From Desulfolutivibrio sulfoxidireducens (GTDB taxonomy: Bacteria; Desulfobacterota; Desulfovibrionia; Desulfovibrionales; Desulfovibrionaceae), in assembly GCF_013376475.1 (NCBI RefSeq), contig NZ_CP045508.1, positions 434,001-498,000 of the forward strand: a stretch of 64,000 bases of DNA, in the 5' to 3' direction. Below, one piece after another: positions 29,093 through 57,138 of the stretch (position 1 is its first letter; the number at the start of each line of letters is the position of its first letter). A program made the translations under genes and the position numbers. The notes beneath the pieces are model-generated. The model saw only the letters and a list, made by a program, of their open reading frames with translations. It ran no database searches and was not told the DNA's origin.

Positions 29093-30028
29093 ATGCCCCT
29101 GCCCGCCGCGGATGTCGTCTTTTACGTCACGGTGATCCTTGTGGCCCCGCACCTGGCCCTGGCCCTGGCCGCGGCCGGCATGCCCCTGGTCAGCGCCGCG
29201 GGCGGTTTTTTCAGGACGAAACGGATCAAGATCTTCCTGGACAAGTTCGGCCAGCAGACCACCACCTTCGCCCTGCTCGGCGGTGGATACGTCTTTCTGC
29301 TCACCGTCCTTTCGGCCGCGGCCTTGCCCGTCCTGGCCCCGGAATCCGCCACGTTTTTTTTCCACCTGCCCCTGCCGCTTGTGCCCCTGGCCGTGCCCCT
29401 GGTGCTCGGAGCGGCACTCTTTCTGGCCTACCGGGGCCTGTGGCAGCGCATGAAAAACACGAAAAAGGTCCATTCCCTCATCGGCATCGCCTCGGGGCTG
29501 GCCTTCTTTCTGGCCATCTACGCCGCCATCTCCGCCTTTCGCCTCCTGTCCCTGCACGCCCCCATGCCCCTGGATGCGGCGGACTTCCTTTTTCCGCCGC
29601 GTAACGCCTTCTTCTGGCCCATCCTGGTTCAGACCCTGGCCCTGGCCCTGTGTCTGGCCGGAGGCTTCGGCGGCCTGTACCTGGTCATCCGACGCAACAA
29701 GGACGACTTCGGCCGCGACTACTACGATTTCACCCTCAAACTCGCCTCCCGTTGGGCCCTGCTGGCCGGCATCCCGCAACTGGCCGCCCTGGGGCACGTC
29801 TATAACGGCCTGTGGTCCTTCGCCTCGGTCCACGCCGCCTCGGCCTTCCTCTTTTGGGCCATGGTCGCCTCCCTGGCCCTGTGGATCATCTCCCTGGCCC
29901 TGTGGGCCGTCGTCGCCCTGAGCCCCTATGCCCTGCGCCTCAAATGGGCCGTCCTCGCCGCCCCCCTGCTGGCCATCGCCGCCATCGCCTGCCAAAGCGC
30001 CTTTTTCTGGCCCATGTTCCTCGGATAA
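29093..30028 (+). CDS. Integral membrane protein of unknown function (311 aa)
   Basis: Eight or so hydrophobic helices, starting DVVFYVTVILVAPHLALAL, with a basic first cytoplasmic loop (FFRTKRIKIFLDKFG) and another at MKNTKKVHS. I do not recognise a transporter or enzyme signature. The hydropathy is reminiscent of small cytochrome-like or DUF membrane proteins, but conserved histidine pairs for heme are not evident. AAGGAG precedes the ATG. It is a single gene divergent from the CpoB-like gene and ends at the dispersed repeat. Confidence 0.7.
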   Translation: MPLPAADVVFYVTVILVAPHLALALAAAGMPLVSAAGGFFRTKRIKIFLDKFGQQTTTFALLGGGYVFLLTVLSAAALPVLAPESATFFFHLPLPLVPLAVPLVLGAALFLAYRGLWQRMKNTKKVHSLIGIASGLAFFLAIYAAISAFRLLSLHAPMPLDAADFLFPPRNAFFWPILVQTLALALCLAGGFGGLYLVIRRNKDDFGRDYYDFTLKLASRWALLAGIPQLAALGHVYNGLWSFASVHAASAFLFWAMVASLALWIISLALWAVVALSPYALRLKWAVLAAPLLAIAAIACQSAFFWPMFLG

Positions 30029-30035
30029 CGGATAC

Positions 30036-30331
30036 ATCGGGGCTGCCGCCCCGGACCCCGCCCGGGGGGAATCATTCCCCCCGGACCCCTCGACTCCGGG
30101 CGAGCGCCGCGTTTTTCAGCGCAAAGCGCTGAAAAACGCGGCGCTCGCCCGGAAAGTCGTGGCGTACGGAGGCAGGCATGTCCTCCGGCACGGGTGCCAG
30201 GGCCATGAGACGGTGTTTCGCGGCGGGGTTTCCCCGGAACGCGAAGCGTTCCGGGGAAACCCCGCCGCGTGACACGGGTGCAGGGGCTGAGCCCCCTGCA
30301 GGGGGGCGTGGGGGGCGGAGCCCACCACGTC
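30036..30331. repeat. Palindrome-rich dispersed repeat, copy A
   Basis: It fills the convergent gap between the membrane protein and the nitronate monooxygenase. From left: a small palindrome (CGGGGC-TGCC-GCCCCG), a 23-nt palindrome at 30062-30084 centred on AATCATT, a perfect 27-bp stem at 30096-30152 (loop AAA), a conserved block with GTACGGAGGCA and GCATGTCC, a perfect 24-bp stem at 30219-30269 with tip GCGAAGC, an imperfect stem near 30280-30301, and a conserved end with GGGGGGCGTGGGGGGCGG. The same framework recurs at 55446-57138 with different stem sequences. Confidence 0.85.
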
Positions 30332-55445: not shown

Positions 55446-55569
55446 ATCGGGGCTGCCGCCCCGTACCCCGCCCGGGGGGAATCATTCCCTGTATGAACCG
55501 GGTACATAGGTGACAGTTTAGACCGGGAACATGGGTAACAGTTTCCGATAAGGGTATCGGAGGTGTCCG

Positions 55570-56781
55570 ATGCCTTGGAAACAGGTTAATCCCATGGATG
55601 AGCGTGTTCGATTCGTCGTTGAAACGCAACTGGGCATGAAATCGATCCAGCAGCTTTGCCATGACTATGGAATCAGTCGCAAGATAGGCTATAAGTGGTT
55701 AGAAAGGCATGCTAAAGGTGGTTTTGAAGCCTGTATGGATCAAAGTCGAGCGCCCCATTCATGTCCACATAAGACCAGTGACAAGATAGAAGCACGGTTA
55801 ATTGAGTTGCGCAACCTCTATCCAAAGTGGGGTCCGAAAAAGCTTGTTGCGCTTCTTGAAATGGAGATGAAGGAAAGCCACGTCATCTCAGCGAGCACCG
55901 CAGGAGATATATTGTATCGCCATGGCTTGGTAGTTCCCAGAAAAGTAAAAAAACGAAATTAAGGGAAGACGAAAACCCATTTTTTGAGGGAGCCAACATC
56001 TGCCAACGATGTATGGGCTGTGGATTATAAAGGATGGTTCCGGACCAAAGACCATTTCGTCTGCCATCCATTAACCGTGACAGATTTGCATAGCCGATAT
56101 GTCTTGTGGTGCAAGGGGCACAGAAAACAATCGGCCTCTGAAGTAGAAAAAGATTTTGAAACAATCTTCACTACGTATGGAGTGCCACTGGCACTCAGAA
56201 TGGACAATGGTTCCCCGTTTGGCTCAACTGGACCAGGAGGGCTGACATATTTAAGTCTGAGATGGATGCAGATAGGAATTGATATAGAATTCATAACTCC
56301 TGGGAAGCCGCAACAAAACGGAAGCCATGAGCGCATGCATAGAACATTGAAGTTTGAAGCGATCTTGCCACCAGCACGTGATATATATGAACAGCAGTAT
56401 CGTTTTGACGCCTGGAGAGAACGATTTAATACGCTTCGTCCCCATGAATCCTTGCAGCAGAAAACGCCAGAATCGGTATATACCCCATCGCCTCGGCGTT
56501 ATACTGGTAGAAAGGGATTCACATATCCAGGTTACTTTGAGGTCCGGTCCGTTCGAAAAGACGGCATGTTTTTTTGGAAGGGGACACTGCGTTTTGTCGG
56601 CGAGGCATTCGGAAAAGAACAGATCGGCCTGGTCCGTGACCACGAAGATCGATGGCTTGTGTTTGCCGGAGAGATGCTTGTGGGGTGGTTTCATGAATCG
56701 TTGTCGGGAGTTAGGCCCCTGAGCGAATGGGAATCATTTTGTGGCCGAGTTGGGCGGCGGCCTCCGACGGGCTCTTTGTAG
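55570..56781 (+). pseudogene. IS481-family transposase with one in-frame stop
   Basis: A single 404-codon frame broken by TAA at 55960-55962. The first part (130 aa, starting MPWKQVNPMDERVRFVVE) is the helix-turn-helix with SRAPHSCPHKTSDKIEARLI. The second continues in the same frame, GKTKTHFLREPTSANDVWAV, into the DDE integrase core: first Asp in WAVDYKGWF, second in RMDNGSPF, Glu in QNGSHERMHRTLK. All three catalytic residues survive, and the only lesion is the nonsense codon. Unless read through, the element should be immobile by itself. A start at a TTG (55984) for the second half alone would lack DNA binding. Confidence 0.85.
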
Positions 56782-56810
56782 GCCCATTCTCGGCCGCCGC
56801 CCAACTCGGC
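56744..56810. repeat. GC-rich 19-bp perfect stem at the 3' end of the transposase gene
   Basis: GCCGAGTTGGGCGGCGGCC and its exact complement are separated by 29 nt; the transposase stop codon lies in the loop. The composition is unlike the rest of the element. It may terminate transposase transcription or be a separate small insertion. Confidence 0.6.
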
Positions 56811-57138
56811 TTGGCAGCCCCGTTGGCTGGGGGAAAAACAACCGGAGTGTTACCTATGTACCCGGTTTAAAGTGTTACCCATGTTCCCGGTTGCACATCC
56901 CCCCGGAACCCCCCGATTCCGTGACATTTTGCCGGCGCGTCGCGCCGGCAAAATGCCACGGGGATGCGGCGTGTACGGAGGCAAGCATGTCCACCAGGGA
57001 GGGTATCGGGCCATGCGAGACTGGTTTCGCCGTGGGCGGTCGAGCTGGCGCGAAGCGCCGGTCCGACCGCCCACGGCGAGTCAGGGGTGCGGGGGCATGA
57101 TGCCCCCGCCGGGGGGCGTGGGGGGCGGCGCCCACCAC

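Follow-up and report, generated by a model that had tools for sequence, protein, structure and literature searches.

The window analysed here, a stretch of 64,000 nucleotides from the Desulfolutivibrio sulfoxidireducens genome (NZ_CP045508.1, positions 434,001 to 498,000), carries two copies of a modular palindromic repeat. Copy 1 (30036-30331) occupies the whole gap between two convergent open reading frames (ORFs), which end at 30028 and 30333. Copy 2 (55446-57138) is the same element, about 280 bp long, split by a 1,408-bp IS481-type insertion sequence. That the two are copies of one element, as in the original prediction, is confirmed. The features are as follows (positions in the window).

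30036-30331, + strand: copy 1, whole element
30038-30053, + strand: hairpin A, CGGGGC-TGCC-GCCCCG, conserved 5' block
30062-30084, + strand: hairpin B, CCGGGGGGAAT-C-ATTCCCCCCGG, conserved block, targeted by the IS481-type element
30095-30153, + strand: variable stem 1 of copy 1, 28 bp, perfect, triloop AAA
30164-30183, + strand: block C of copy 1, conserved linker, GTACGGAGGCAGGCATGTCC
30219-30269, + strand: variable stem 2 of copy 1, 24 bp, perfect, triloop GAA
30279-30300, + strand: stem D (third stem) of copy 1, short 3' hairpin, 8 bp, loop of 6
30301-30331, + strand: 3' end block of copy 1, with a G-rich hairpin
55446-55489, + strand: left part of copy 2, hairpin A and part of hairpin B
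55490-56897, + strand: IS481-type insertion sequence, 1,408 bp, inside hairpin B of copy 2, flanked by a 4-bp duplication (TCCC)
56898-57138, + strand: right part of copy 2
56919-56961, + strand: stem 1 of copy 2, 21 bp, 1 mismatch
56973-56992, + strand: block C of copy 2, GTACGGAGGCAAGCATGTCC
57027-57079, + strand: stem 2 of copy 2, 25 bp, 3 mismatches, triloop GAA
57089-57109, + strand: stem D of copy 2, 10 bp

The stem dimensions first proposed needed some revision. At position 1, perfect stems of 27 and 15 bp had been claimed; the stem of copy 1 is indeed perfect but measures 28 bp, and that of copy 2 measures 21 bp with one mismatch. Of the two 24-bp stems claimed at position 2, the one in copy 1 is as described, whereas its counterpart in copy 2 has 25 bp and three mismatches. 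The stems of about 10 bp at position 3 were recovered (8 bp in copy 1 and 10 bp in copy 2). Both window stem-2 apices do read GCGAAGC, but this heptamer was rejected as a motif of the family, since the loops vary and only 4 of the 13 stem-2 copies parsed in two genomes have the loop GAA.

Hairpins were scored as matched pairs minus 4 per mismatch. Six hairpins in the 64-kb window passed the cut-off of 11, five of them within copies 1 and 2, and three first-order Markov controls yielded 1, 0, and 0; the window hairpins are thus not a product of chance. RNA folding of copy 1 gave z-scores of −15.5 and −15.0 for the two strands. Neither window element matched an Rfam family at the gathering score, and the 13 matches of copy 1 under a relaxed threshold were all below gathering. 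Visual inspection of several copies showed an ORF running through block C (ATG after GGAGG), which is not conserved.

Copy number and distribution

We searched for further copies with a hairpin B pattern allowing up to 3 mismatches, which gave 60 matches in the 4,155,851-bp host genome (G000) and none for the reversed control pattern. BLAST of copy 1 against its own genome returned 11 near-full-length matches, copy 1 itself counted. The family therefore far exceeds the two copies seen in the window; a genome with these two alone, which the original prediction had named as evidence against itself, is not what we found. Within the genus, the 5' block was matched 60 times in G000, 48 times in G002, and 22 times in the draft genome G001. 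Hairpin B was matched in 5 of 39 genomes, the host included: the three of the genus, G007 (5 matches), and G018 (1 match), the last two appearing only at 3 mismatches. Most of the evidence below comes from two well-covered genomes, G000 and G002, whose related copies are not independent of each other.

A looser hairpin B pattern hit at least 120 stretches, many of them in records named Desulfovibrio, Desulfovibrionaceae, or Desulfovibrionales, and restriction to the genus was accordingly dropped for hairpin B, given the many Desulfovibrionaceae and Desulfovibrionales records among the matches listed. In most of about 60 places among the matches listed, no long stem follows the looser hairpin B. 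For stem 1, we scored 39 loci, namely 33 of the at least 120 stretches and all 6 from G007 and G018; four outside the genus (L254, L299, L106, and L244) scored E ≤ 2.5e-7 for the stem-1 architecture, with a score that includes the conserved block. One hairpin B match lies in a record named Ruminococcaceae bacterium OttesenSCG-928-D13 (L233, 3319-3346), either by transfer or by contamination. A plasmid or phage origin was set aside, with zero matches in plasmid and phage collections. In the draft G001, many contigs end at the element (e.g., L191-L197); the family apparently disrupts short-read assembly, and copy numbers from drafts may be too low. Among the titles and abstracts of the open-licence papers listed, we found no account of such repeats in Desulfovibrio.

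Pairing is kept while stem sequence varies

The framework of the element (hairpins A and B, block C, and the 3' hairpins) is conserved, and the long stems mostly consist of 21-24 bp arms with a triloop, their geometry being conserved and their sequence far less so. Because RNAalifold, applied to a MAFFT alignment (A1) of 32 copies chosen from 54 eligible ones, puts stems of different length out of register, pairs were counted in Python with stems stacked from the apex. Of 61 G000 copies, 47 gave a parsed stem 1: 1036 of 1060 positions were Watson-Crick, all 47 left arms were different, and the mismatches included 5 GU and 9 AC. Across G000 and G002, 58 of 67 parsed stems had the triloop (the other 9, without a triloop or too short, were dropped), and 912 of their 928 pairs were Watson-Crick, with 6 G-U, 6 A-C, and 4 other mismatches. 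By comparison, 500 shuffles of the same 58 stems gave a mean of 487 Watson-Crick pairs (highest, 520), and a left arm paired with another copy's right arm at only 52%. These values support the expectation that pairing is maintained while bases differ. Stem-1 cells changed on both sides numbered 320 versus a shuffle mean of 75, and the two loop-adjacent pairs were nearly invariant. Stem 2 behaved similarly in 13 copies from the two genomes (298 of 306 pairs Watson-Crick; arm swap, 52%), with 2 G-T and 0 A-C mismatches, too few to judge.

Since G-U is no commoner than A-C, stem-1 pairing is kept for both strands. Between the structured RNA and the DNA hairpins that had been proposed, this disfavors an RNA acting from one strand, for which we found neither a G-U excess nor an orientation preference, and favors pairing at the DNA level or on two strands. 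Loop orientation was partly symmetric (AAA/TTT, 6:4; GTC/GAC, 9:6; TTC/GAA, 9:2), below the expectation for free inversion. Loss of pairing, which the original prediction had named as evidence against itself, does occur in a small part of the family: stem 1 is missing from its usual position in 14 of 61 G000 copies, of which 5 have a stem of at least 12 bp further on (L072, L092 with two, L094, and L096-), and it is degraded in L020. Stem 1 is thus not indispensable, given these 14 copies and 4 of 17 sites shared by G000 and G002 at which the long stem is missing from one or both genomes.

Stem changes come in pairs

We compared 49 equal-length pairs of similar stems, which have copies in common and are therefore not independent, with pairs of unequal length excluded, and found 222 columns changed in both arms versus 25 changed in one. 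Transversions made up 143 of the 222 paired changes (64%). Ten G002 copies, grouped by eye as a subfamily with similar stems, vary at 3 columns of the 56-nt framework. Their stem 1 shows paired changes in 20 cells, 9 of these changes being distinct, and an insertion present in both arms; 3 cells are changed on one side, 2 of them at the outermost pair. Changes can also be block-like: the outer 16 bp of both arms are identical between copy 1 and L015, the inner part is wholly different, and both stems are perfect.

Both flanks matched at 17 sites common to G000 and G002. Hairpin B has 26-29 identical letters of the aligned 29-30 at these sites, and arms of at least 18 bp are present in both genomes at 13 of the 17, with left arms that differ in all 13. 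The shared-site stems L216/L158 and L221/L129 show few paired changes; those of L042/L151 and L043/L155 are widely different, and the G002 copies there carry the subfamily stem. In one more pair, L018/L388, the arms measure 29 bp and 21 bp, neither stem has a mismatch, and hairpin B is also altered in a paired manner between the two genomes.

As in palindromes maintained by template switching, changes thus occur in both arms together, indels included. Quasipalindrome template switching that makes palindromes more perfect is established in Escherichia coli (PMC7202029), and template switching has been proposed for RNA stems (PMC8794818). Because the changes are paired, including a paired insertion, arm-to-arm copying of this kind is probably the best fit to the pattern. 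The likeness extends to arms that become mutual complements, with paired and loop changes (PMC7202029; PMC8794818). The accounts given there differ from ours in that the hot spots are demonstrated with reporters or deduced for RNA genes, whereas here the pattern is seen across the copies and genomes of a repeat family.

Position at gene ends

Gene context was assigned with a simple GC3-based ORF caller, which is crude. With this caller, 78 copies could be placed (43 in G000 and 35 in G002; context was unclear for 6 and 2, respectively). The G000 contexts were ++ 16, -- 17, +- 10, and -+ 0, and those in G002 were ++ 11, -- 12, +- 12, and -+ 0; that is, 33 and 23 copies lay between co-directional genes, 10 and 12 between convergent genes, and none between divergent genes in either genome. 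By contrast, 7 of the 24 gaps of at least 60 bp in the window are divergent (Fisher p = 2e-5 versus 0 of 78 copies), a baseline limited to the crude caller, 24 gaps, and a single window. An earlier, cruder count had 1 of 49 copies in a divergent context. Stop codons on the + strand lie 20-60 nt before hairpin B in 36 of 49 cases, and those on the - strand lie 190-300 nt after the hairpin B start, which is the element's 3' end, in 42 of 51. The remaining stops lie elsewhere, and the stop-to-element distance consequently varies.

The element is not a canonical terminator, in agreement with the original prediction. The 8 nt that follow stem 1 contain no more than 3 T (+ strand) or 2 T (- strand) in any of 67 copies, and no terminator-like site was found within copy 1 (30036-30331); a canonical intrinsic terminator was rejected on these two grounds. 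For 13 genomes, Gupta and Pal (2021, PMC8355165) proposed that hairpin clusters located after stop codons act as terminators that need no U-tract. That class has at least two hairpins shortly after the stop codon, and each copy of our element has several. The family described here differs from those clusters, as presented in that paper, in being repeated, with a conserved framework and both orientations, and in being known from sequence alone. The gene-end position, folding on both strands, and absent U-tract together suggest strand-symmetric 3'-end hairpin clusters, which are probably two-way terminators without a U-tract.

An alternative 3' form (L216, L212, and L218) ends in GCCGCCGGAGGC directly before the ATG of the next gene, and this end could act as its ribosome-binding site.

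Comparison with REP and REPIN

The nearest known systems are the REP, REPIN, and BIME repeats of enterobacteria and pseudomonads, which, as described, are likewise dispersed palindromic intergenic repeats with composite hairpins and are targets of insertion sequences. Like them, our family consists of dispersed extragenic palindromes in high copy (60 in G000, with the placed copies intergenic). It differs in its size of about 300 bp, in two long stems that are nearly free in sequence, in lacking a fixed GTAG tag, and in the absence of a RAYT match from two of the three genomes that host it. None of the 49 G000 and 37 G002 copies had GTAG or its complement near the 5' end. Between −30 and +230 of hairpin B, GTAG occurred in 3 of 49 and 4 of 37 copies and CTAC in 8 of 49 and 3 of 37, i.e., there is no constant tag. 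CGTC, the end tag of another group of REPs, was counted without a composition control; close to the 5' end it occurred in 4 of the 49 G000 copies and 12 of the 37 G002 copies, and at any position in 24 and 30, respectively. The Y1 transposase family PF01797 gave no match in G001 (a draft) and G002, and its sole match in G000 is a gene split over two frames. A RAYT-driven REP was rejected on the absent GTAG tag and the missing PF01797 in G001 and G002; since the GTAG and RAYT features fail, the family is classed among palindromic intergenic repeats and not as a REPIN. G-T pairs are reported to be frequent in GTAG repeats (PMC3733652), whereas G-T is not enriched here. Dispersed hairpins with paired sequence change are also known from the double-hairpin elements of fungal and algal mitochondria and the small dispersed repeats of Nostoc, which differ in host and size.

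Element sites turn over between genomes. Neither hairpin A nor hairpin B adjoins the upstream gene of copy 1 in G001 or G002, although the downstream gene does have one of them in G002, and both are absent from the copy 2 region of G002. Three empty-site checks turned up rearrangement in two cases and another filled site in the third, and among the few sites examined, we found neither a clean empty site nor a target duplication of the element.

Interpretation

We consider it fairly likely that these modular palindromic repeats sit at gene 3' ends as hairpin clusters that stop polymerase or shield RNA ends, and that their arms are kept matched by template switching. Transcription entering the element from the gene on either side would yield RNA that folds, as it emerges, into a very stable hairpin cluster, which may stop RNA polymerase or protect the 3' end with no need for a U-tract. 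During replication, the hairpin would form in single-stranded DNA, and one arm could be synthesized on the other, in the manner of quasipalindrome template switching. Any alteration of either arm would then pass to its partner in a single event, leaving the arms complementary, as the paired changes suggest. A broader and more doubtful proposal, possible in our view, is that the inherited information is geometry and not sequence: rewriting from arm to arm would keep the hairpins perfect as strand-symmetric transcription stops, with sequence drifting fast and function staying.

Ordinary compensatory evolution, in which a mutation breaks a pair in an RNA (or DNA) hairpin acting on both strands and selection fixes a second one, would need no special copying. 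Gene-end position and stability on both strands suit such an RNA role, two-strand selection alone would account for the missing G-U excess, and strong selection purging mismatched intermediates could also yield paired changes by rapid compensation. However, the paired insertion and the block replacements in both arms, the 64% transversions among paired changes, and the 20 paired cells of the G002 subfamily, whose framework barely varies, are hard to obtain by two independent mutations; we therefore regard this explanation as rather unlikely. It is somewhat less likely still that the repeats are functionless DNA palindromes, their arms matched by template switching alone and copies that hit promoters or genes purged by selection. 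DNA-symmetric pairing and free stem sequence fit this idea, and purging could produce the absence from divergent gaps, but hairpin B is nearly identical (26-29 of 29-30 letters) at the 17 shared sites at which stems differ, which suggests constraint. Palindromes without function should also tend to be lost through deletion.

The element had been predicted to be functional or mobile. Its structure and dispersal hold, but mobility fared poorly, with the Y1 family absent from the sister genomes, 17 shared sites, and no clean empty site. In the mobile version, a REPIN-like non-autonomous element would depend on a transposase acting in trans, with DNA hairpins needed for excision. The dispersed copies, the palindromic geometry, the young-looking G002 subfamily, and the sites that differ between genomes are in keeping with this, and REPIN spacers are likewise described as keeping hairpin capacity via compensatory changes (PMC3116915). 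Against it stand the shared sites, the single split PF01797 gene in G000 with no match in G001 or G002 (the Y1 family alone was searched), the missing target duplication and clean empty site (few sites), and the absence of all 78 placed copies from divergent gaps, and we consider it improbable.

Gene-end hairpin clusters with arms rewritten by template switching, if real, would bear on the survival of long perfect stems under random mutation, an open question for which template switching has been proposed (PMC8794818). One bacterium supplies dozens of parallel hairpins, a subfamily with a near-constant framework, and sites shared with a sister genome, and single-event paired change could be counted directly in the family, making it a natural test of hairpin survival. 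The arrangement would also illustrate how gene-end signals can be made independent of orientation and of a U-tract. It carries a warning as well: covariation is usually read as proof that an RNA is functional, yet DNA copying may be its source.

Rearrangement and insertion at the element

Several elements lie at synteny breakpoints. The flanks of L019, L041, and L030 each adjoin two different G002 elements (L137/L143, L135/L140, and L154/L162, respectively), and those of window copy 1, L021, and L024 lie at separate places in the compared genome. Recombination between copies is a possible cause in these six cases, which are given without a baseline.

The insertion sequence in copy 2 (55490-56897) has two ORFs in one frame with a stop between them, encoding IS481 zipper/HTH and integrase-core domains. 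G000 has 7 full or split copies of it (L374, L375, L376, L377, L378, L379, and the window copy) and two fragments. Both junctions lie inside hairpin B in 5 of the 7, and one junction does so in 1 of the 7 (L379). The repeat is an insertion hot spot for this IS481-type element, as REP repeats are for insertion sequences (PMC1525189). A related copy in G002 (L382) likewise lies within hairpin B, and L377 sits in what appears, judged by eye, to be a CRISPR repeat array.
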